DNA from: a virus
Reading direction: 5' to 3' (one strand)
DNA: 20,023 bases
IMG/VR virus record: IMGVR_UViG_3300042564_003753
Location: 1-20,023 of that record
Positions 1 to 9,598 of the stretch are shown here, in pieces. The notes below the pieces were generated by a model that was not told the origin of the DNA, ran no database searches, and was given only the letters and a program-made list of their open reading frames with translations. The translations under genes were made by a program, and so were the position numbers. Every line of letters begins with the position of its first letter. The first letter of the stretch is position 1.

Positions 1-360
1 CAGGTTCGGCTTGGCCTGGTACTCCAGGACGTCGTTGATCTGGAAGGCGAAGTACTTGCCCTTGTCGATCACGAGTTCCTGCGCGTCGGGTGCGGGCACC
101 GAGTAGGTGACGCCGCCACCAACCGTGTAGTTGGCGACTGCGATGGACGGCGCGGTGTGGATGATGACCTTGTCACCCATCGAGCCAATGTCACCCTGCC
201 AGTCGGTGTTGGCGATGTCGCCATAGACCGAGGCAGCGTAGAACTTGGCATTCATCTTCGCCGACCAGACGGCCGGGATGAAGTTGCCCGAGTACGGCGG
301 GTTGGTGTTAAAGGGGGCGGCTACCGGGTAAACAGCAGCGGTATTGCGAATGACAGCCAT
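1..360 (-). CDS. Major capsid protein, N-terminal part (runs off the left edge)
   Basis: The reading frame opens at ATG 360 and stays open for 120 codons to the window edge, so the C-terminus is missing. AGGAG lies 7 bases before the ATG. The start of the protein has the pattern typical of phage coat proteins: FIPAVWSAK at residues 27-35, KFYAA at 39-43, then GDIANTDW and SMGDKV. Coat proteins of this type assemble the icosahedral head shell around a scaffold. Its neighbours fit: a scaffold-like gene lies just upstream, then portal and terminase. A half copy of the recurrent TCTAAC element lies 31-44 bases upstream of the start. The family call rests on remembered motif similarity and gene order; only about a third of a typical capsid protein is visible. 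Confidence 0.85.
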   Translation of the reverse strand, partial: MAVIRNTAAVYPVAAPFNTNPPYSGNFIPAVWSAKMNAKFYAASVYGDIANTDWQGDIGSMGDKVIIHTAPSIAVANYTVGGGVTYSVPAPDAQELVIDKGKYFAFQINDVLEYQAKPNL

Positions 361-390
361 GCCTTGCTCCTAGCGGAGGCGCCCCCGGGT

Positions 391-404
391 GCGTTAGATA
401 ACGC
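391..404 (-). promoter_or_regulatory. Half copy of the CTAAC/GTTAG element, before the capsid gene
   Basis: GCGTTA (391-396) and TAACGC (399-404) form a perfect inverted repeat with a two-base spacer. On the coding (minus) strand it contains TCTAACGC, matching one half of the 12-bp element found elsewhere in the window. It includes the stop codon of the scaffold-like gene (394-396). The arrangement of the half-sites differs from the full sites, so this may be a degenerate or unrelated dyad. Confidence 0.4.
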
Positions 405-1347
405 GACCTTCAGCGAGCGCCTGATTGATCTCGGCCTCCCGCGCTGCGAACTCAGCTTGCTTCCCGCGGTACGCACCGCGAGCGACGTCGTTGTAGAAGC
501 GGGTGATGTCCGCCTCCGAGATCGTCGGCTTGCCTTGTGGCAAGGAAGTGCTGGATGCCGCCGGGCGAGGGGCCACTTGACGTTCCAACTGTTGCGCGGG
601 GGTCGGGCCGGAGACGGGAGCGGGCTTCAGCGTGTCCTTGTAGGCCAGGAAAATCCGGACCACACGAACGGCGTCGCGCGCATCGGCTGCTGCAGTCAAC
701 GCTGCCTGACGGGGAGTGCCGTAGACCGGGTCCACTTCCGAGAGCCAGGCCAGGAAGCCTTCGCTCACGTTGATGTCCTCGTAGTCCGGCACAGCAGCGG
801 CGAGGCGGTCGATGAACATGTCATCGTTCGTCTTCTCCACTGTCTGCGTGGTTCCCCGCAGGTGTGCTTCGAGGGCGTCGAGACGCGCTCCAAACTGTTG
901 TGCCTGCGCTCCGATGTAGGCTTCGACGTGCCGACGCACCATCTCAACCAACTCGGCTCCAAAGACTTCCGCGTCTTTGGCGGTGTCGACGTTCTCGGGT
1001 TCCGGCTTGGCTTGCTTCTGCTGCTCCAGCTGGCTGGTCAGCGTCTGCACAGTGCGCGTCAGTTCCGAGATGCGGGTCTCGAAGCTGCGGTGCATGCCCT
1101 GCAGGACTCGGTGCTTGTTCGCCAATTCGTCGTACTGGGTACGCGGAATGACGGGCTCCGGGGTCGGGGCGGGGGCTTGCGGCACTGCTGCCTGGGGTGC
1201 GGGAACCTCGGGCACTGTCGGCTCCGGGGTCGCACTTGCTGCGGGGTCCGCTGCGGCGGGGGCCTGTTCCTGCGGGCTGTTCGCCGCCGCTAGGATTCGA
1301 TCGGCCTCCTCCAGTTGCTGCTGGACTCGACTGGGCAAGTTGCTCAT
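394..1347 (-). CDS. Scaffold-like capsid assembly protein
   Basis: This 317-residue protein lies between portal and major capsid genes, the usual place for a head scaffold. Residues 30-70 are a disordered Ala/Pro/Glu-rich stretch. They are followed by a predicted coiled coil (about 73-115, with ELANKHRVLQG and SELTRTVQTLTSQLEQQ) and a second helical part around 125-170. The C-terminus is rich in charged helix and ends QALAEGRVI. Scaffold proteins are helical, guide coat assembly and leave or are degraded before packaging. The only purine-rich sequence upstream (AAGAGG) is about 14 bases from the ATG, so the ribosome site is weak. Function is inferred from position and composition; no catalytic motif is visible, so a scaffold/protease fusion is not supported. 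Confidence 0.65.
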   Translation of the reverse strand: MSNLPSRVQQQLEEADRILAAANSPQEQAPAAADPAASATPEPTVPEVPAPQAAVPQAPAPTPEPVIPRTQYDELANKHRVLQGMHRSFETRISELTRTVQTLTSQLEQQKQAKPEPENVDTAKDAEVFGAELVEMVRRHVEAYIGAQAQQFGARLDALEAHLRGTTQTVEKTNDDMFIDRLAAAVPDYEDINVSEGFLAWLSEVDPVYGTPRQAALTAAADARDAVRVVRIFLAYKDTLKPAPVSGPTPAQQLERQVAPRPAASSTSLPQGKPTISEADITRFYNDVARGAYRGKQAEFAAREAEINQALAEGRVI

Positions 1348-1401
1348 GATTTTTGGCTCGGCCTCTTAGGCTCGGGCAAGTTGTGCCGACATGCGGCGAA
1401 A

Positions 1402-1599
1402 TCAGCGTCCCGCGTCGAGTCGCTTCTGCAGCTTGACGATGAACTGCGCTTGGCCCTGAGCCTTACGCAGCACGTCTACTTCGACGGCGGAGACAAGAAT
1501 CTTGGTCACGGAGTCGAGTTCCTGTTTCAGCCAGTCTTTGAAGCGCGCGTCGCGTCCGAGGGACTCGAACAACTGGCGCTCTTGGTCTGGTGTTAGCAA
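1402..1599 (-). CDS. Small conserved-type head-operon protein, unknown function (65 aa)
   Basis: A 65-residue, highly charged protein lies between portal and scaffold-like genes. It starts with TTG at 1599, chosen because AGGAG (1607-1611) sits 7 bases upstream and no in-frame ATG is near. The protein is likely all helical (residues 5-60, e.g. DARFKDWLKQELDSVTKIL and AQFIVKLQKRL). Small helical proteins at this location are common in podovirus head operons, but I know no function. A promoter with a perfect TTGACA and the 12-bp element directly precedes it. The start codon itself lies in a half copy of that element (TTGCTAACACC). Confidence 0.75.
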   Translation of the reverse strand: MLTPDQERQLFESLGRDARFKDWLKQELDSVTKILVSAVEVDVLRKAQGQAQFIVKLQKRLDAGR

Positions 1600-1623
1600 G
1601 CACTCACTCCTGAATTTGTGGCG

Positions 1624-1652
1624 AGACTACACGTCTAACACGTTAGTGTCAA
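1624..1652 (-). promoter_or_regulatory. Candidate sigma70-type promoter for the 65-aa/scaffold/capsid genes
   Basis: On the minus strand a perfect -35 box TTGACA (1647-1652) is followed by a 17-base spacer and TAGTCT (1624-1629) as a poor -10 box. The spacer contains the full 12-bp element. The -35 box overlaps the stop codon of the portal gene. Initiation near 1617 would leave a leader of about 18 bases containing the AGGAG of the next gene. The -10 box matches the consensus at only three of six bases, which limits confidence. Confidence 0.45.
1635..1646 (-). promoter_or_regulatory. 12-bp element CTAACGTGTTAG (coding strand)
   Basis: A near-perfect palindrome, read CTAACGTGTTAG on the minus strand, lies 2 bases after the portal stop. 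It sits between the TTGACA and the proposed -10 box of the next gene. Flanking bases CAC and AC are shared with the copy at 5855-5866, giving a 16-base identity on the coding strand. Confidence 0.8.
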
Positions 1653-3754
1653 GACGAAAAGTTGTCCGTGGCCGGCGCGTCGTTCATGAGGCGCTTCTCG
1701 CCCGGCTTGGTCGAGGGCTGCTGGCCCTGCGTCTGCTGTGCGGCCTCTGCCTGGGCCATCGACTGCATGGCGAGCCGCTGGCGGATCACGCTGAGCGGCG
1801 GGACCACGTCGTCCGTGTTCATGTCGAGGGACTTGGCGCCCTCGCGCAGGACGGCAGCGCGGCCATCGAGGCCCATGATCTGCATGTCGATCGGATTGGC
1901 CGTGTCGCGCAGGAACTCGGCGCGGCGCACCTGGGCGGTGTCCTTGACCATCAGCGACATGGCGCCGCGGGCCACGACCTGCAGGTCGCCCTTGATGTCG
2001 GGGTCGCCGACGTAGCGCATGGTGAACTCGAACGCGCTGCGGACCGACGGGCCGATGACGTTGAAGTCCAGGCTGCGCACGGTGTTCTTCGTGGTCTTGC
2101 CGGCGTTGCCGACCATCATCGACATGCCAGAGGCCGTGCGGCCTGCGCCGCCGGCGGAGCCGTCACCCGTCATGTAGCGGGGGATTCCGCTCACCTCGTC
2201 GGCGATCACGCTGAAGCGCTCGTAGACGCCCATCAGCTCGGCGGCGTTGGACGTCGGCTGGAAGAAACCGATCGGGGCGGCAGTGGAGCCGCTCGGGTCG
2301 CTCGTGACCTGGTGGATCTTCCACGGGTACAGCGTCGTGATTTCCTCGCCGGCTGGCATGCGATCCGCCATCACCCAGACCTGCGGACCGGATGAAATGC
2401 CCATGTTGTTCGACAGCGCGCGGGCGGCGGCGTTGCACATATCCTCGGCGTCGCGCACCAGGTCGTACAGCGAGTTGCCCCAGAAGGCGCCCGGGACGGC
2501 CTCGTAGCTGTCGCCGTAGTACGGGCGGCGGGCCAGCGGGTCGGTGTTGATCTCGGCCTTGATGACCCAGTCGCCCACCAGCCACGCCTCGATCTCGTAG
2601 ACCGCTGCGGTGTCGGGAACCTCGTCCGCGGGCATGCCCCACTCGCGCAGCACCTTGCCGGTGACGCTGCCCCAGTACTGCAGGGCGTCGATCATGTCGG
2701 AGCCCAGTGTCGGGTCGGACGTGCCGGGGGTCTCGACGTGCGCGCGTTCCTGGTCGACGCGCAGCCATTCGCGCAATCCACCGGATGAATACGCATCCAG
2801 CACAGCGCGGATGGCGGGTTCCTTGTAGCCCGGGACGCCGATCATCTCGGCGATGGCCGTCGGAGCCAGGCGGTGGTGCTCGATCAGGAAGCCGTCGTTG
2901 ACCGAACGCGACCAGGGCGCGGGGTAGATGTTCAGCGGGTCGACGCGCTCCCACTGGGGCTTGTTCTCGAAGGTGGCGACCGGCACGCTGGTGCCGTCGG
3001 GGCCTGGCGCCCACTGCAGGACACCGCAGCGGCGGATGACTGGGCCTTTGAGGAACGCCTTGGGCGAGACCATCAGGTCGTCCAGGAACGCGTTGAGCGC
3101 TTCGATGAAGCCGCCCTCCTGCAGCAAGTCCTCGATCTTGCGCTCCGCGCGCTTCATGCGGGTGCGGGCTTCGAGTTCGATCTGGGACTGGGCCTGTTCC
3201 TTGGCGTCGCGCAGCAGCTGGCGTATATCGCCAATGCCCATCGGCACGCCGGACATTTCCGCCTGGGCGACCAGTTCAGCGGCGCCGCGCAGTAGCTCAG
3301 AAACCAGCTCCTCGGGCAGCGTGGGCTCCGCCGTGGGCTTCACGGACCAGGGCTTCTCATCGCCGGAACCCAGCAGCACGTCGCCGATCAGCGACTTGGC
3401 CTGCCGCGCCTTGGTGGCGAACAGCATCATGTAGATCAGGGAGCTGCCCTGGCTCTTCAGGTCCGACTCTTTCAGTGGGTCGTACTCGCCGCGCTTGGAG
3501 CGCAGGGCCGCGATGATCCGCTTCTGGGCGTCGTTTTCCTTGTGCTCTTTCGCCAGTGTCCAGTGGCGCCGGATCTGGGAGGCAAGGGACTGGACCAGGA
3601 CCGAGTTGTTCGTAGCGACCGCGGCGTCGTGCGCTGCACGGGCTTCATCTTCCTGGACGGCGCTGAGTGACTTGACGGTCATGATGCCGCCAATAGACAC
3701 GTCCCGGCGAGCCGGGGACGCGAGTCCTGGGATGTTCAGCCCGGTCGCCTGCAT
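1649..3754 (-). CDS. Portal protein
   Basis: A 701-residue protein encoded between the large terminase and the head genes; its length and position match podovirus portal proteins. The portal is the dodecameric ring at one vertex through which DNA enters and leaves and to which terminase docks. Visible features are a charged helical N-terminus, a central region with NDGFLIEHHRLAPTAIAEM, GDSYEAVPGAFWGNSLYDLV and AAARALSNNMG, then SGIPRYMTGD with a Gly-rich loop, and a helical Gln-rich C-terminal tail. I chose ATG 3754 because GGAA lies 6 bases upstream. A TTG four codons earlier (3766) is open but abuts the regulatory element, and another ATG lies 24 codons downstream. The stop is 2 bases before the element at 1635-1646. 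Confidence 0.85.
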   Translation of the reverse strand: MQATGLNIPGLASPARRDVSIGGIMTVKSLSAVQEDEARAAHDAAVATNNSVLVQSLASQIRRHWTLAKEHKENDAQKRIIAALRSKRGEYDPLKESDLKSQGSSLIYMMLFATKARQAKSLIGDVLLGSGDEKPWSVKPTAEPTLPEELVSELLRGAAELVAQAEMSGVPMGIGDIRQLLRDAKEQAQSQIELEARTRMKRAERKIEDLLQEGGFIEALNAFLDDLMVSPKAFLKGPVIRRCGVLQWAPGPDGTSVPVATFENKPQWERVDPLNIYPAPWSRSVNDGFLIEHHRLAPTAIAEMIGVPGYKEPAIRAVLDAYSSGGLREWLRVDQERAHVETPGTSDPTLGSDMIDALQYWGSVTGKVLREWGMPADEVPDTAAVYEIEAWLVGDWVIKAEINTDPLARRPYYGDSYEAVPGAFWGNSLYDLVRDAEDMCNAAARALSNNMGISSGPQVWVMADRMPAGEEITTLYPWKIHQVTSDPSGSTAAPIGFFQPTSNAAELMGVYERFSVIADEVSGIPRYMTGDGSAGGAGRTASGMSMMVGNAGKTTKNTVRSLDFNVIGPSVRSAFEFTMRYVGDPDIKGDLQVVARGAMSLMVKDTAQVRRAEFLRDTANPIDMQIMGLDGRAAVLREGAKSLDMNTDDVVPPLSVIRQRLAMQSMAQAEAAQQTQGQQPSTKPGEKRLMNDAPATDNFSS

Positions 3755-3767
3755 GTGGTGTTCCAAT

Positions 3768-3779
3768 CTAACGCGTTAG
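3768..3779 (-). promoter_or_regulatory. 12-bp element CTAACGCGTTAG, perfect palindrome
   Basis: This is the only perfectly symmetrical copy of the element in the window. It lies in the short gap between the terminase stop (3828) and the portal start (3754), 13 bases upstream of the ATG. On the coding strand it continues as GTTAGAT, the same flank as the copy at 11056-11067. Confidence 0.8.
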
Positions 3780-3827
3780 CCTGTAATGTAGCCTACAGCG
3801 TAAGTGGGCGCAAACTAGCGTGGGCAA

Positions 3828-5267
3828 TCAGGAGTAGACGTACCTGTGGGGGACGACGCGCCGCGCCTGGACCTTGCGCCCGGCCAGGCTGCCGCGGATC
3901 TGGGCGTTGTAGTGCAGTGCCAGGTACTGGCCCGCGTCGCCGATGTGGCTGTGGTGGGTCTTGTCGACCGTGGTGCTCGGCTCGCCCGACTTCGACTTCT
4001 TGAAGCGGTGGCCCCACTCCAGGGCGTCCACGAAGTGCGGACACTCCTCGCCGTCGATCAGGAAGCCCGCATTGCCGTCGATGCTGCGGGTCAGCAGGCC
4101 CTCCACCGCTGCGATGCGCAGCTCGGGGTCGTTGGTGTGCGCCTTGATGGTGTTGTACCCCCGGCGCTGCACCGCCTGCGCGATGGTGTCCTCGTCGATC
4201 TGGCTGCGCGCAAAGCACGCGGGGTCCAGCACGAACAGGATGTTCTCGGCCCGGAACAGGGGGAACTTCGTGCGCAGCTTGGGGATGAGCAGCGTATCCA
4301 GGAAACGCTCGACGCCCATCGTCTCCCCGTCCGGCACGTACGCCTCGGCCAGGATGTTCACCCGACCCCGCGCATCCTGCTGACCCACCACAGCCGCGGC
4401 CTGCAGGCCGTTGTCCATGCCGACGATCAGGGGGTTGATGCCCTGGATGACCGCCGACAGGGGCTTGGTGCTGACGTGGAAGCTGCGCTTGAACGACCCG
4501 CGGTACAGCGGCTGGCCGGTGTCGCCGGCGCCGTACTGGTTCTTGAGGTAGACGTTGATCCAGTCCTCGGTCTTGCCGACGACCAGGTTGTCGTAGTACT
4601 CGGGGGCCAGGAACTCGCGGTTCTCCCGCTCCGGGTTCAGCGTGCCGTCCTCCAGCAGGGCCGGTGGCTGCATGAACACCTCGATGCCCGGCTCGGGCGT
4701 CGTCATCAGGCCGTGCCAGAAGCCGCCACGCGGCGGCGGGTTGGTGGAGCAGATCACGCCCGGGTAGGTCACCCCGCCAGCGATGCGCGCTGGGAAGCGG
4801 TTCACACGACCCTGCAGGCCGGCAAACACCTCGGGGTCCACCTCGCGGCACTCTTCAACCCATGCCGCACTGGCCTCCAGGGACAGGAGTCGCCGCACGT
4901 CGTCGGGCGTATCCGCGGCCAGCAAGCAGAACTCGCTATGCACCACGGTGCCGTCCGGCAGCTTGAAGCGGGCCTCGAACACGTTTTCGCTCAGCCGCCA
5001 CTGCCCCATCGAGCCCTGGGTCATCGTGACCAGCCAGGTGTCCATCATGGGCTTGACGGTCGACTTCAGCTGCGCCACGGTGTTCCGCAGGACGATGTGC
5101 TTGGTCCGCCGGACGTTGTTGAAGGGTGCCTGCGTGACGGATCGCTGCACCAGGTCCATCAGGGCCACCGTCGACTTACCACCGCCCACAGGGCCGCAGA
5201 TCAGCTTGATGAAGGCCCGGGATTCCAGGAAGCGCGCGCCCGTCGGGCTTGGGCGGTAGTTCAGCAT
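3828..5267 (-). CDS. terL: Terminase large subunit (packaging ATPase and nuclease)
   Basis: A 479-residue motor protein that pumps DNA into the prohead through the portal and cuts concatemers. The N-terminal ATPase shows Walker A GPVGGGKST (residues 25-33), a Walker B-like AAWVEE (134-139) with the catalytic Glu, and a coupling motif STNPP (174-178). The C-terminal RNase H-like nuclease shows acidic residues at the expected spacings: D285 in GMDNG, D348 in VLDPA and D444 in HIGDAGQY. All key residues appear present, so it should be active. The ATG (5267) overlaps the TGA of the upstream gene by one base, and GGGGA within that gene can serve as ribosome site, so the two are likely translationally coupled. 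The family assignment is firm; the packaging type (cos or headful) cannot be read from the sequence. Confidence 0.93.
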   Translation of the reverse strand: MLNYRPSPTGARFLESRAFIKLICGPVGGGKSTVALMDLVQRSVTQAPFNNVRRTKHIVLRNTVAQLKSTVKPMMDTWLVTMTQGSMGQWRLSENVFEARFKLPDGTVVHSEFCLLAADTPDDVRRLLSLEASAAWVEECREVDPEVFAGLQGRVNRFPARIAGGVTYPGVICSTNPPPRGGFWHGLMTTPEPGIEVFMQPPALLEDGTLNPERENREFLAPEYYDNLVVGKTEDWINVYLKNQYGAGDTGQPLYRGSFKRSFHVSTKPLSAVIQGINPLIVGMDNGLQAAAVVGQQDARGRVNILAEAYVPDGETMGVERFLDTLLIPKLRTKFPLFRAENILFVLDPACFARSQIDEDTIAQAVQRRGYNTIKAHTNDPELRIAAVEGLLTRSIDGNAGFLIDGEECPHFVDALEWGHRFKKSKSGEPSTTVDKTHHSHIGDAGQYLALHYNAQIRGSLAGRKVQARRVVPHRYVYS

Positions 5268-5680
5268 CAGATCCCCAGGAGGTCGTCCAGGGCGCGGACC
5301 ATGTCGTCCAGCGCTTCAGGCTCCGGTGACGGAGCGGGTAGTGGAGTGGCCTTCACTGTGGTAGCGACGACGTCCAGAATCTCAAGCGACTCCTCGGGGA
5401 TCGGCAGGGCGGGAGCCGCGGGCTCCGCCACGATCGTGGCCTGAACACCGCCAATACCTGTGAAGGTGAAGTTGAAGACTGGCAAGCCCGCATTGGGGTC
5501 CGCCTTCTTGTCAGCCTCTGCGCCGGTGACCCGCATGATGAGGTCGACTGCCTTGCGCATGTCTTCGATGTTGCCCTCGTGAAAGACCCGCTCGACATAC
5601 TTCGGAATGACCATCATCCCGCCTTCCCGTAGGACGGCGTGCGCGGCTTCCTTGAAGTCGGCGAGTTCCTTCGCGCTCAT
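5267..5680 (-). CDS. Putative terminase small subunit
   Basis: A 137-residue protein directly upstream of, and overlapping by one base, the large terminase gene. This is the standard place of the DNA-recognition subunit of terminase. Residues 1-55 look helical (ELADFKEAAHAVLREGG, IEDMRKAVDLIMRVTG). Residues 65-85 are rich in beta-forming residues (PVFNFTFTGIGGVQATIV). The C-terminal third is Pro/Glu-rich and ends with an acidic amphipathic helix (ALDDMVRALDDLLGI) that could contact the large subunit. I do not recognise a classical helix-turn-helix, so the role is inferred from position. No good ribosome site precedes ATG 5680, which lies 6 bases after the stop of the 45-residue gene, suggesting coupling. 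Confidence 0.6.
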   Translation of the reverse strand: MSAKELADFKEAAHAVLREGGMMVIPKYVERVFHEGNIEDMRKAVDLIMRVTGAEADKKADPNAGLPVFNFTFTGIGGVQATIVAEPAAPALPIPEESLEILDVVATTVKATPLPAPSPEPEALDDMVRALDDLLGI

Positions 5681-5686
5681 CAGGCG

Positions 5687-5824
5687 TTACTTCTTGCCGA
5701 ACGGCGGGGCTTTACCCGCAGGCTTCTTGCCGAAAGGGGGTGCCTTCTTGCCAGATTTCATCTCGGCAGCCTCTTCGCGCTTGGATTCTTTGCCGGCAAA
5801 CGGGTTGGGTTTCTTGGTCGCCAT
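5687..5824 (-). CDS. 45-residue Lys/Pro/Gly-rich protein
   Basis: This small gene has a strong ribosome site (AGGAGG 5 bases before ATG 5824) and ends 6 bases before the putative small terminase. The product is very basic (about one third Lys/Arg) and has a repeated motif: KAPPFGKK occurs twice, at residues 27-34 and 38-45, and PFAGK near the N-terminus is a related form. No membrane segment or known domain is visible. A disordered, nucleic-acid- or capsid-binding role is possible but is inference. The upstream region carries a perfect inverted repeat (5834-5850) and the 12-bp element (5855-5866). Confidence 0.75.
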   Translation of the reverse strand: MATKKPNPFAGKESKREEAAEMKSGKKAPPFGKKPAGKAPPFGKK

Positions 5825-5833
5825 AACGGCCTC

Positions 5834-5850
5834 CTGTCAATACTTGACAG
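5834..5850 (-). repeat. Perfect inverted repeat CTGTCAA-TAC-TTGACAG
   Basis: Seven-base arms at 5834-5840 and 5844-5850 are separated by three bases, directly upstream of the AGGAGG of the 45-residue gene and next to the 12-bp element. The arms contain TTGACA-like hexamers on both strands. It could be a regulator site or a small hairpin in the leader; a three-base loop makes a stable hairpin marginal. Confidence 0.6.
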
Positions 5851-5854
5851 CAGT

Positions 5855-5866
5855 CTAACACGTTAG
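5855..5866 (-). promoter_or_regulatory. 12-bp element CTAACGTGTTAG (coding strand)
   Basis: Identical on the coding strand to the copy at 1635-1646, including the flanks CAC and AC. It overlaps the stop codon of the 67-residue gene (5863-5865) and lies 31 bases upstream of the 45-residue gene start, so it marks the boundary before the small/large terminase group. Confidence 0.8.
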
Positions 5867-6066
5867 TGCGGATACACCAGGAAAGGCTCGGGGTCCGTCA
5901 TCTCCAGAAACACGTGCCAGGTGTCCGGCGGGCACATCGGACAGTAATGCACCACGTCCGCCACGCGATAGAAGACCCCCTCGAAGCACTTCACATCCCC
6001 GCGGCGGGGCGCGTTATGCCCGACGTCCTCGTACAGAAAGCGGCGTGCGACGTAGTAGCGAATCAT
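5863..6066 (-). CDS. Hypothetical 67-residue protein with CPMCP motif
   Basis: A 67-residue protein starting at ATG 6066 and ending inside the 12-bp element. It is rich in aromatic residues and has a compact pattern GDVKCFEGVFYRVADVVHYC followed by PMCPPDTWHVFLE, ending EPFLVYPH. The CxxC pair (residues 43 and 46) could bind a metal, but only these two plus an isolated Cys near residue 27 and several His are present. I do not recognise the family. The ribosome site is weak (ACTAGG just before the start). It lies 42 bases downstream of the endonuclease gene and is probably in the same leftward transcript. Confidence 0.65.
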   Translation of the reverse strand: MIRYYVARRFLYEDVGHNAPRRGDVKCFEGVFYRVADVVHYCPMCPPDTWHVFLEMTDPEPFLVYPH

Positions 6067-6108: not shown

Positions 6109-7191
6109 TTAGGGGTGTTCGGTAGCCCTCCTCTTGGGCGGCGTGAACATCTGGCCCGAGGTCACTGTCAGGGCCGTCTCCACATCGCGGCCCGCCTTCA
6201 TGCGCGCCTTGACCGTCTCCAGGGTTACGCCATAGTGCTCCGCCAGGGTCTTCAGGGTTCCGGTGACGCCGCGCACGGTGTACTGCGCTGGGGGCTTCTT
6301 AGCGGCTTGCTGGGCCTGTCGTTTCTCCTGCGCCTTCTTGGACTTGACCTGGCGCGGCAGGGGCTCCAGGCCGACTGCTTGCTCCGGTGGGACGCCGCGG
6401 AACAGGCGCTGGTAGATGGTGTTGGCCGACACGCCGGTCTCCTTGGACCAGTCCGTGATGCTCTTGGTGCGCCCTGCGGCGGTGATGTGGCGAGTTCTCA
6501 TGTGCTTGATCTCCTGGTACTTGATGTATGCCTCGTACGAGGCGTGCTTCGTCAGGGTCGGTGGGGTGACCCCTAGAGCCCTGCAGGCGGCGTTGATGCT
6601 GGGGTACGGGCCGAACGGCTTGGGCGGGTTGCTCGGTTTCTTCTGGCGTAGCTGGTACGGCCAATACCAGCCGTTCTGGTTTACCAGTTGCGGCAGGTTG
6701 CGCGGGTCGGTTGGGCCGATTTTGGCTGGTGCCTTGCGCTGCCGCTTGGGCTCCGGCTTGGACTTGCTTGCCATGTACGCCTCGTAGGAACCCATCCGTC
6801 TCAGCTGGCTGCGAGACGTACCGAGCGCCTTGGACGCAACGCGCATAGAGTCGTAGGGGCCGAACCTCTTTGCCAGGGTCGCGTCACCACGCGGCCTTCG
6901 TTTGGGGTTCAGCGGCGCCAATGGCGTCGGCTCGCTCAGACAGTTAAGCGTGGGGCGAAGCGTAGCGATGACCTGGGCCTCCAACAGATGGAGTGTCTCC
7001 CGGTCGAACCCGCAGGCGATGGGCTGCATTTCCCAGCCGGGTTCCGTTCGTAGCTGTTTGGCTAGTACGTGGCTTGTGCGGTCCTTTCCGCGGGCCGCCC
7101 GGCGGTGCATGGCTTGCCTCGCATTGAAGCGCGAAGTGGCCCCTACGTACAGCGCGCCGGACGGGAACTGGATCGTGTAGATCAGGTGCAT
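6109..7191 (-). CDS. GIY-YIG family (homing-type) endonuclease with tandem DNA-binding modules
   Basis: A 360-residue protein. The N-terminal nuclease (residues 1-90) has IYT at 4-6 and YVG at 15-17, spaced as in GIY-YIG enzymes. Arg candidates follow at 21 and 25, the catalytic Glu is in LLEAQVIA (E71), and LNCLSEP holds the usual Asn (N83). The rest looks like four helix-turn-helix-type modules. Two closely related copies begin FGPYxS and end SYEAY (about 110-140 and 193-222). Two more are of the 'TGVSANTIYQRLFRGVPPEQAV' and 'YGVTLETVKARMKAGRDVETAL' kind (about 245-273 and 312-341). Such enzymes cut DNA at a long target and spread by repair. It is a free-standing gene at the head of the packaging operon. 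A possible promoter overlaps its upstream element. Confidence 0.85.
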   Translation of the reverse strand: MHLIYTIQFPSGALYVGATSRFNARQAMHRRAARGKDRTSHVLAKQLRTEPGWEMQPIACGFDRETLHLLEAQVIATLRPTLNCLSEPTPLAPLNPKRRPRGDATLAKRFGPYDSMRVASKALGTSRSQLRRMGSYEAYMASKSKPEPKRQRKAPAKIGPTDPRNLPQLVNQNGWYWPYQLRQKKPSNPPKPFGPYPSINAACRALGVTPPTLTKHASYEAYIKYQEIKHMRTRHITAAGRTKSITDWSKETGVSANTIYQRLFRGVPPEQAVGLEPLPRQVKSKKAQEKRQAQQAAKKPPAQYTVRGVTGTLKTLAEHYGVTLETVKARMKAGRDVETALTVTSGQMFTPPKRRATEHP

Positions 7192-7744: not shown

Positions 7745-8290
7745 ATGTCCAACGATCTGCAAACCCAAGCCGCTAGCGAATTGGTCGCTGCCCCCGCTGT
7801 CGTCATCATGACCGGCAAGACCCTGTCGGAGAAGCGCCTCTCCGTCGTGTCCCAAACCGGTCATGCGGCCGTCGTCATGCTCGCCAGCACTATGGCCGGC
7901 GCAGTCGGCAAGGAAGCCCGTAGCGTGGCCCTGAACCATGTCGCTGGCATGCTGGCGAAGAATGCCCTGTCTGGCAATTACAAGCCCGTGGCCGAAGCCC
8001 TCGCATTGCGGCTAGGTGCCTCGGTGTGCTTCGGCAGCCCGTCCGAAGCCCCGAAGGGCGAGACTGCATCCCAACTGGCCGCCCGGACCCGCGAGGACTG
8101 GGAAGGCTTTGGCCGCGATATGCGCCGCGAGCTGCAGCGCCTGCCTGAGACCACAAAGGCCGGCAAGGTGCCCCCTGCCCGTCAGCGTGCGATGGACGCA
8201 CTGGAGCTGTATGTGTCGGTCCGCGGCGCCATCGAGTTCATCCTGGCCGAGCGCAAGGCCCGCGCCGAAGCCGCAGCCAAGACCGAGTGA
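7745..8290 (+). CDS. Hypothetical protein, first gene of the rightward arm (181 aa)
   Basis: A 181-residue protein with GGAG 7 bases before ATG 7745. Residues 15-75 are rich in Ala, Val, Met and Gly (VVIMTGKTLSEKRLSVV, GHAAVVMLASTMAGAVGKEA) and may form amphipathic helices; no clear membrane span is seen. Residues 100-181 are charged and helical (TREDWEGFGRDMRRELQRLPE, AIEFILAERKARAEAAAKTE). I do not recognise the family. It stands alone: a terminator-like hairpin begins 10 bases after its stop and the next gene is 750 bases away. Its position as the first rightward gene suggests an early role, but that is inference. Confidence 0.7.
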   Translation: MSNDLQTQAASELVAAPAVVIMTGKTLSEKRLSVVSQTGHAAVVMLASTMAGAVGKEARSVALNHVAGMLAKNALSGNYKPVAEALALRLGASVCFGSPSEAPKGETASQLAARTREDWEGFGRDMRRELQRLPETTKAGKVPPARQRAMDALELYVSVRGAIEFILAERKARAEAAAKTE

Positions 8291-8300
8291 GCCCAGACAC

Positions 8301-8335
8301 CATACCCGCGCCGTGCGGGTATGCGTTTGGACTTT
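8301..8335 (+). terminator. Rho-independent-type terminator
   Basis: CATACCCGC (8301-8309) pairs perfectly with GCGGGTATG (8315-8323) around a five-base loop, 10 bases after the stop of the 181-residue gene. It is followed by a T-rich but interrupted stretch (GTTTGGACTTTCT). The nine-pair GC-rich stem is convincing; the weak T run lowers efficiency. Confidence 0.65.
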
Positions 8336-8344
8336 CTAATAAAC

Positions 8345-8376
8345 ATACGGCGGCCCGTATACATGGTGCGCGCACC
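8345..8376. repeat. Two adjacent inverted repeats
   Basis: ATACGG (8345-8350) and CCGTAT (8355-8360) form a six-pair inverted repeat with a four-base centre. GGTGCGCGCACC (8365-8376) is a perfect 12-base palindrome right next to it. Both lie at the left edge of the origin-like region, just before the iterons. Confidence 0.6.
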
Positions 8377-8382
8377 GCAATG

Positions 8383-8412
8383 GTGCGCCGGAGTGCGCCG
8401 GAGTGCGCCAGA
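8383..8412 (+). repeat. Three tandem 10-base repeats (iterons)
   Basis: GTGCGCCGGA occurs at 8383-8392 and 8393-8402, and GTGCGCCAGA at 8403-8412. The spacing of about one helical turn would place bound proteins on one face of the DNA, as in plasmid and phage iterons. Confidence 0.7.
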
Positions 8413-8490
8413 TGCCGCATTACATGGGGGTCTCCAATATACACGCCGGCATTCGGCAGTGATGTATTGAACGGCAGTCAGCTAATGGGC

Positions 8491-8507
8491 CATTACACCC
8501 CATTACA
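8491..8507. repeat. 17-base direct repeat, left copy
   Basis: CATTACACCCCATTACA occurs here and at 8710-8726, flanking the AT-rich stretch and the large dyad. The heptamer CATTACA itself occurs five times (8418, 8491, 8501, 8710, 8720), and once inverted at 8882-8888. Confidence 0.75.
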
Positions 8508-8575
8508 CCAGATTTGCACCCTGGTTCCCCCTCCTATATATATAACTCTTATAAGATACAAACAAACAAACAGGG

Positions 8576-8673
8576 AAAATCGATAAGCTACGTGTGACTT
8601 TCCGTTCGTGTTGCGTTTCCGCAACACGTGTTAGACCCCTTACGAATTCGTAAAAGTTCAGCTTATCGATTTT
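8576..8673. repeat. 98-base dyad with 14-base perfect arms and nested palindromes
   Basis: AAAATCGATAAGCT (8576-8589) is the exact reverse complement of AGCTTATCGATTTT (8660-8673). Inside lie a nine-pair stem CGTGTTGCG/CGCAACACG (8607-8615 with 8620-8628, four-base loop), the palindrome AACACGTGTT (8623-8632) and the perfect palindrome TTACGAATTCGTAA (8640-8653). Such nesting points to a protein-bound or structured DNA locus: origin, recombination site or partition-like site. Confidence 0.8.
8623..8634 (+). promoter_or_regulatory. Degenerate 12-bp element inside the dyad (AACACGTGTTAG)
   Basis: Nine of twelve bases fit CTAACGTGTTAG in the rightward direction, followed by AC as in other copies. 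The overlap with the dyad's hairpin arm means that the regulator of this element could also touch the origin-like locus. Confidence 0.45.
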
Positions 8674-8709
8674 GACGCATGTATTGTACAGAGTTAATGG
8701 ATATAACCA

Positions 8710-8726
8710 CATTACACCCCATTACA
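8710..8726. repeat. 17-base direct repeat, right copy
   Basis: Exact second copy of CATTACACCCCATTACA (first at 8491-8507), 219 bases further on, just outside the large dyad. Confidence 0.75.
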
Positions 8727-8753
8727 TGGCCATTTCGGTGATCTCATATACAT

Positions 8754-8765
8754 ATCGCACGTTAG
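8754..8765 (+). promoter_or_regulatory. Degenerate 12-bp element (ATCGCACGTTAG)
   Basis: The right half CACGTTAGAT matches strongly and the left half poorly (8-9 of 12 overall). It lies between the large dyad and the 50-base repeats. Confidence 0.35.
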
Positions 8766-8836
8766 ATACACTCTAGCCGCTATGTATATGGGCTTCCAGT
8801 TCCCGTATAGATGGCCGGTCCGCCGCCCGCTGGCGC

Positions 8837-8990
8837 CATGCCGCGCGGCCACACCGAGCAACGCCGTCGGCTTCGATAGTTTGTAATGCCGCGCACCCCT
8901 GCTGCGCCCTGCCGCACTGGGTTGTATAGATCCTAATGGCGCGCACCCTGTTGCGTCGTTGCCTCACATCTTAGATAGATCCTAATGGCG
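8837..8990 (+). repeat. Degenerate tandem repeats of about 50 bases
   Basis: Units begin near 8837, 8884, 8934 and 8983. The core ATAGATCCTAATGGCG is exact at 8926-8941 and 8975-8990, and GCGCACCCxTG followed by GCC recurs at 8891 and 8941. The leftmost unit is recognisable only by ATGCCGCGC and spacing. They sit immediately before the rightward gene at 9038 and end in half-sites of the 12-bp element (GTTAG near 8990 and 9003). Confidence 0.6.
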
Positions 8991-9005
8991 TTAGCTTGTG
9001 CCGTT

Positions 9006-9017
9006 AGACTGCAGTCT
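9006..9017. repeat. 12-base perfect palindrome AGACTGCAGTCT
   Basis: The palindrome lies 20 bases before the ATG at 9038 and starts inside a GTTAG half-site. It may be an operator or leader hairpin for that gene. Confidence 0.6.
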
Positions 9018-9037
9018 CACATTAGAAGGAGCCTCCT

Positions 9038-9598
9038 ATGGCGATCACCCGCCTGTTCCGCGCCCCCCGCCGGGTGGGCATCCCCTACGCTTTCGTGTGC
9101 CGCTGCGACTGCGGCGCTGCGCTGGAAGTGGTCGGTCACCAATGTTCCGATGCCGAAGGCGCTGCGCGGCTCCGCCTGACCGGGTGCTATGCGTGCCGCA
9201 GTGAGCAGTCCCAACTGCTTGGCCGCCGTGCCTTTGAGCGTGCCCAAGAGAAAGAACCCCTGTTCGGCATGCTGGAGGAAAAGCAGGAGCAGCCCGACGA
9301 GGTGCTGGAGCCCGAGCGTGCCGCGTACTTCAAGGTTGCCCCCGAGCAGCTGGACTACACCCGGTCCACTCAGTGCGTGCTGACCGTCATGAAGGCGGGC
9401 TTCACCAAGAAAGACGAGGCGTTCGCCACTGGCCTGCTGCGCTTGAGCATGTTCTGCCGTGAAGCCCTGGCGGATGGCGATGCACACCGCTACACCTCAC
9501 GCATGGAGAAGCTGGTCGCCCTGGCGAACACGCTGAGTGCCGCCCACACCGCGAAAGCACCACCCGCTGCGCGCACCACGGGGGCTAATCCGTCATGA
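9038..9598 (+). CDS. Hypothetical protein with N-terminal Cys-rich (zinc-ribbon-like) motif (186 aa)
   Basis: A 186-residue protein with AGGAG 6 bases before ATG 9038. The N-terminal 60 residues carry CRCDC (C21, C23, C25), C36 with H35, and CYAC (C50, C53), a pattern suggesting one zinc-ribbon-like site. The middle part (60-150) is charged and probably helical. The C-terminus is Ala/Pro-rich and likely disordered. No enzyme motif is seen; binding of nucleic acid or protein is possible. The stop overlaps the start of the next small gene (ATGA), so translation is coupled. It is the first gene after the repeat-rich region. Confidence 0.72.
   Translation: MAITRLFRAPRRVGIPYAFVCRCDCGAALEVVGHQCSDAEGAARLRLTGCYACRSEQSQLLGRRAFERAQEKEPLFGMLEEKQEQPDEVLEPERAAYFKVAPEQLDYTRSTQCVLTVMKAGFTKKDEAFATGLLRLSMFCREALADGDAHRYTSRMEKLVALANTLSAAHTAKAPPAARTTGANPS

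Follow-up and report, generated by a model that had tools for sequence, protein, structure and literature searches.

What is the function of a gene-free, repeat-laden stretch of DNA that separates the leftward late genes (capsid, portal, terminase) of an uncultured phage from its rightward early genes? A preliminary description of this locus had read it as a candidate replication origin, or alternatively as a site for a recombinase, a partition protein or a telomere resolvase. Our comparative analysis of sequences suggests that it is probably the phage's replication origin; the origin reading is supported by the conserved place and architecture of the locus in related phages and by its co-occurrence with a replication module. 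The locus may also double as an early control region.

The window analysed here is the whole of IMG/VR record IMGVR_UViG_3300042564_003753 (20,023 b). Window positions 1-5880 recur without a difference in another record, G002, which extends leftward from there, and the two were joined into a genome of 59,350 b, for which the source virions of the two records may differ and the other ends may be separated by a small gap. Assuming a circular map, the early arm leads to genes for a DNA polymerase of the PolA type, for a helicase that carries the annotation SNF2 in RHph, and for a primase-helicase of 1023 aa. The window has no DNA similarity to named phages, and direct searches of viral contigs gave no homologues of the two genes flanking the locus or of two early proteins. 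The setting of the locus is as follows.

3828..5267, minus strand: terminase large subunit (TerL), anchor of the cross-phage comparison
7745..8290, plus strand: 181-aa gene adjoining the locus, assigned by sequence comparison to family A (relatives in L004, L035, L039 and L041)
8291..9037: whole non-coding locus (747 bp), proposed origin and early control region; the codon model predicts zero genes and repeat density far exceeds that of shuffles
9038..9598, plus strand: 186-aa first early gene right of the locus, cysteine-rich and without a family (from sequence)

Elsewhere in the window, a 360-aa protein (6109-7191) has matches to HNH-endonuclease PHROGs and a GIY-YIG-like N-terminus. The DNA polymerase gene in G002 (L014-L016; joined coordinates 313-3168) encodes 951 aa compared with 648 in the related genome G001, and the extra stretch, which starts with CVEGDALVLTDSGW and ends with VHNC, looks like an intein.

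Architecture of the locus

The locus had been placed at 8340-8730 and called gene-free. No gene is indeed predicted there, but the locus is larger, spanning 8291-9037 and including iteron cores within the elements at 8876, 8926 and 8975. It is the lowest-GC repeat-dense stretch in the joined genome, with a GC content in 500-b windows of about 0.50 compared with about 0.65 around it, which bears out the AT-rich segment described earlier. Its features, from repeat analysis except where indicated and with the strand where one is assigned, are listed below.

8302..8322, plus strand: GC-rich hairpin ATACCCGC-gccgt-GCGGGTAT, directly 3' of the 181-aa gene (direct reading of the sequence)
8365..8376: 12-base palindrome GGTGCGCGCACC
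8383..8412, plus strand: three tandem 10-mers, GTGCGCCGGA/GTGCGCCGGA/GTGCGCCAGA (two perfect, one imperfect), starting at 8383, 8393 and 8403
8418..8427, plus strand: iteron-like site CATTACATGG
8483..8509: left iteron cluster, a reverse core TAATGG followed by two tandem copies of CCATTACACC (8490, 8500) with a 10-bp period
8491..8507 and 8710..8726: 17-base direct repeat CATTACACCCCATTACA
8533..8575: AT-rich segment, CCTATATATATAACTCTTATAAGATACAAACAAACAAACAGGG region (sequence and GC profile)
8576..8673: 98-base dyad with 14-bp arms AAAATCGATAAGCT/AGCTTATCGATTTT at 8576-8589 and 8660-8673 (repeat analysis and folding)
8607..8615 and 8620..8628: 9-bp hairpin inside the dyad
8640..8653: 14-base palindrome TTACGAATTCGTAA inside the dyad
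8695..8729: right iteron cluster, a reverse core TAATGG (8695) followed by ACATTACACC CCATTACATGG (8709-8729)
8876..8990, plus strand: three elements, ATAGTTTGTAATGCCG then two copies of ATAGATCCTAATGGCG, starting at 8876, 8926 and 8975 (spacing 50 and 49 bp), with a reverse iteron core in each

The weight of these repeats was assessed against 2000 dinucleotide shuffles of 8291-9037. The locus holds 58 duplicated 9-mers, a number reached by none of the shuffles (maximum 16), and the 17-base direct repeat, rightly described at the outset as lying on both sides, was likewise matched in 0/2000. One of the 2000 shuffles had an inverted repeat of 14 bases within 120 b, such as the perfect arms of the dyad form, and the nine-pair hairpin and the perfect 12-base palindrome are also present as first reported. 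The 14-base palindrome is real too, but it is unremarkable alone, since 134/2000 shuffles have one.

The specific iteron of this phage is CCATTACACC, all three window matches to which (at most one mismatch) lie inside the locus. Six of the seven copies of CATTACA in the 59-kb joined genome and seven of the ten of CCATTA are found there, the CATTACA/CCATTA copies being at 8418, 8483 (reverse), 8490, 8500, 8695 (reverse), 8710, 8719, 8882 (reverse), 8934 (reverse) and 8983 (reverse). The three 10-base iterons named in the preliminary description are instead the tandem 10-mers at 8383-8412; two of these are perfect copies, but the third is imperfect and their GTGCGCC core is not specific to the locus, given its 12 copies across the window. 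A role for these 10-mers, with a core so frequent elsewhere, is doubtful. To the left and right of the core the CATTACA iterons share one orientation, and reverse cores occur only singly, so the clean inverted layout seen in G022 or L035 is not present in the window. The locus has two of the features that characterise an iteron-type origin, short repeats clustered in one place and an adjoining AT-rich segment.

The hairpin at 8302-8322 is a possible terminator; it has no T run and was not flagged by a terminator scan. The elements at 8876-8990 could serve as early promoters, or operators, arranged in tandem. Several phages have two or three elements at a spacing of about 48-50 bp in or beside the locus, as at window 8876-8990, L020:3345-3410, L048:8129-8205 and L025:8251-8318.

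Conservation in related phages

Relatives were gathered by terminase-based searches, which gave 47 contigs with both a related terminase and enough upstream DNA. In 40 of them the densest-repeat 500 b falls between -2.0 and -3.4 kb relative to TerL, usually within a long non-coding low-GC gap; chance agreement would be 23% (binomial p ~5e-19, from contigs that are not independent). For most whole genomes, no other place is both AT-rich and repeat-dense. The letters of the repeats differ from phage to phage, the repeats often being 7-10 bases long, and in several phages the iterons are arranged in tandem at 8-10 bp and are inverted on the two sides of a spacer. The syntenic gap of G001, whose terminase is 75% identical to that of the window phage, carries iterons CACATAAAA with a 9-bp period in both orientations, together with a 46-base imperfect dyad and, at the place of the window 8876-8990 elements, two copies of an 18-base repeat ATAGATCACTGTCCGCAC 48 bp apart. 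The iteron is GGTTTyATT in L004, TTGGATAAT and TTGGATTATT in L032, L035 and L041, and AATGTAAAGTTT in L047 and L067, and the Rollin locus contains long palindromes. Besides its TTGGATTATT iterons, L032 has nine GGTGTGTATG-type 12-mers near the locus (L032:6427-7133), and palindromic boxes of the AGGGTTTACCCT type recur beside iterons at L031:3149-3411 and near the locus in L032 and L041.

Two unrelated families of small genes fill the position that separates the locus from the late genes (window 7745-8290; L003:8478-8939; L031:3644-4174). One iteron type is common to L031, which has the family B small gene, and to L035 and L041, which have family A. Since iteron type crosses the two families, and does not track the adjoining gene, we disfavour the 181-aa gene as an iteron binder; judged from these sequences it is probably not the determinant of iteron specificity.

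Conservation in relatives, proposed earlier as a check, therefore holds for the iterons and AT-rich DNA but does not extend widely to the large dyad. The dyad has a strong single-strand fold (z = -5.6 as DNA; -5.8 as RNA, minus strand), and a central structure of similar strength (z near -5.7) is present in the window and G001, in sequences that are unlike. The z score is only -2.2 to -2.8 in L004, L035 and L041 and near zero in the spacers of all other relatives tested. Since strong structure is confined to the window phage and its nearest relative, G001, and three further phages show no more than faint traces, the dyad was rejected as a conserved core and looks like an accessory feature added in the window phage's clade. 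It perhaps forms a cruciform that aids opening or priming.

Association with the replication module

Five genomes (G022, G023, G024, G025 and G027) encode an AEP-DUF927 primase-helicase and have such a locus with no detectable relative of the window terminase, and in these the locus stands where the arm towards the primase-helicase begins. The same scan found no such locus in BcepC6B, Ss1, VA-RY-3, MEP301 or Y3, which have a related terminase but no such enzyme. A low-GC repeat-dense window is present in 17 of 19 primase-helicase genomes (RHph falls below the threshold and G013 fails on GC) compared with 0 of 5 terminase relatives without the enzyme, for which C(7,5)/C(24,5) = 5e-4 by hand, with genomes that are not independent and a control set of five phages. 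The cut-offs for GC and repeat density, and the interval from -2.0 to -3.4 kb, were chosen after seeing the data, and the relatives' dyad spacers were mapped by eye; these numbers, including the 40 of 47 and the z scores of the relatives above, therefore describe a pattern and are not blind tests. Present with the enzyme but without the terminase, and absent with the terminase but without the enzyme, the locus appears from these gene contents to go with the early/replication arm and not with the structural module.

A candidate initiator

The 1023-aa primase-helicase is encoded in the early arm, some 23 kb from the locus on the joined map, and is predicted to comprise an AEP primase domain, a DUF927/Cch-like helicase and a C-terminal winged helix. 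A structure model built from 44 homologues (mean pLDDT 82; pTM 0.51, which makes the domain arrangement unsure) matches the SCCmec Cch helicase (5dgk, Foldseek E 2e-14) and the AEP domain of S-2L PrimPol (6zp9, Foldseek E 6e-9). A DUF927/Cch-like initiator helicase in the same genome is therefore recognised by fold (5dgk); by sequence, Pfam DUF927 is matched at E 4e-4 and 20.6 bits, under the 22.6-bit cut-off. The last ~110 residues form a beta-helix-helix-beta unit that is conserved across the family and, as modelled, looks like a winged helix, with weak Foldseek matches to winged-helix DNA binders (E ~0.5) and weak Pfam matches to 'Cch helix turn helix' in 4 of 41 homologues. Across 50,697 phage records, matches over most of the enzyme's length came only from Rollin and four closely similar Rhizobium phages. 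The 'putative integrase' of Rhizobium phage RHph_TM3_14A (QIG67541.1, L121:17240-20323) is a homologue of this AEP-DUF927 primase-helicase, and to judge from its sequence that annotation is probably wrong.

Cch is a DUF927 relative of SaPIbov1 Rep, and the C-terminal domain of SaPI Rep acts on iteron origins (PMC7581432); winged-helix domains in AEP-helicase fusions have also been suggested to recognise origins (PMC5862659). By analogy, there is perhaps an even chance that the primase-helicase binds the iterons, and such binding would probably occur via its C-terminal winged-helix domain. Distances between iterons correlate with those between winged helices (r 0.77; Mantel tests, 14 genomes), but no better than with those between terminases (0.77) or helicase cores (0.77), so the binder is not identified by covariation, which is indistinguishable from shared ancestry.

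In the mechanism that we propose, an initiator, for which the phage's own primase-helicase is the most likely candidate, would bind the short iterons flanking the AT-rich/dyad core, open the core, load as the helicase and prime synthesis. Forks would then move outward and be extended by the phage PolA-type polymerase, with the dyad as a clade accessory that may help opening or priming as a cruciform. We regard this explanation as likely, with the origin itself as its firmer part and the identity of the binder as a less certain one.

Alternative explanations

Cumulative GC skew, put forward earlier as a check on an origin, does peak close to the locus (window ~7306), but its sign is opposite to that of a bacterial origin and the peak coincides with the switch in gene direction. 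Being confounded in this way, it was rejected as proof of an origin. Gaps between divergent arms commonly hold promoters, and a phage regulator might instead use the iterons as its operators, ahead of early promoters in tandem, with replication starting elsewhere. The position of the locus directly before the rightward early genes fits such early transcription control, as does the recurrence of iteron cores in the 49-50-bp-spaced elements at 8876-8990, with a similar pair in G001. However, a consensus scan found no sigma-70 promoter, and iterons are also placed around an AT-rich core that lies several hundred bases ahead of the first gene. That the locus accompanies the primase-helicase where structural modules differ also speaks for replication, but it fails to exclude a control region because other early genes travel along too, related early genes being common to the primase-helicase carriers with and without a window-type terminase. 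On balance, we consider control of transcription in place of replication unlikely, though a serious rival, and the locus may well have both roles.

A structured non-coding RNA across 8570-8680, with the iterons incidental, would account for the strong minus-strand RNA fold and the similar single-strand fold in G001. Rfam gave no match at a family's gathering score, however, and most of the relatives with iterons lack the fold, with sequences too diverged for covariation; we judge this explanation very improbable. A partition centromere, or a recombinase, attachment or telomere-resolution site, is in our view very improbable too. The dyad is flanked by direct repeats and the window phage encodes a tyrosine integrase, but the dyad has a 70-base spacer, and so is not a continuous palindrome, and the integrase gene is about 19 kb from the locus on the joined map. 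A family search of 16 records (G002, Rollin, RHph and 13 other contigs) found the integrase in G002 only; it is absent from 14 relatives, and G001, Rollin and RHph all lack it. Since the integrase does not accompany the locus across relatives, attP is unlikely and the recombinase-site reading of the preliminary description is not supported. Its telomere resolvase and partition readings fare no better: protelomerase (PF16684), ParA (PF13614) and ParB (PF02195) were not found in the 10 records searched, though a short piece of the joined genome may be missing, and telRL and a ParABS centromere, the partition type that the search covered, were rejected on this basis. The integrase itself (G002:C1:37670-38134) is absent in the other relatives searched, a distribution which suggests that it is a recent acquisition.

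Comparison with known systems

An origin thus remains our preferred reading, and probably its best form is an iteron origin resembling that of SaPIs, a comparison made by analogy. If this is true, a recognisable origin and a named initiator candidate become available for a widespread group of phages of which hardly any member has been studied, as well as many natural iteron/winged-helix pairs in which the evolution of origin specificity could be followed. A broader proposal, which we think less likely than not, is that this large group of mostly uncultured phages of ~60 kb relies on a single protein as initiator, helicase and primase, acting at a distant iteron origin with repeats on two sides. 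Iteron and binding domain would co-diversify so fast that each lineage has a private origin code, perhaps excluding rival phages or satellites that parasitise replication, and the window phage's clade would have added a cruciform-forming dyad to the core. Our searches, which covered literature outside subscription journals, found no description of the locus.

SaPI origins have iterons on both sides of an AT-rich core. The likeness to SaPI Rep and its origin, and to SCCmec Cch/Cch2 and their putative origin, extends to a DUF927-related initiator helicase, of which the C-terminal domain in SaPI Rep recognises short iterons (PMC7581432). Here, in contrast to both, helicase and AEP primase form one fusion protein. 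The SaPI origin lies directly downstream of rep, whereas the proposed origin is ~15-24 kb from the initiator gene in the present phages, and with that gene ~23 kb away in the window phage we describe the locus as working like a SaPI-type origin and not as a member of that type. The phages are also ~60 kb in size, each with a different iteron, and binding is proposed by analogy.

The alpha protein of satellite phage P4 combines primase and helicase in one protein and binds short iterons near AT-rich DNA, at ori and crr. The primase-helicase fusion and the short iterons near AT-rich DNA resemble the arrangement proposed here, but P4 uses two separate sites. Phage lambda, with O and ori, and the iteron plasmids share direct repeats beside AT-rich DNA, their iterons of ~17-22 bp being longer than those here; unlike in our phages, the lambda ori is inside the initiator gene and the helicase is loaded from the host. 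The general kind of origin is therefore a known one, and what is probably unusual is its pairing with a remote, self-priming initiator candidate in a little-studied group of phages.
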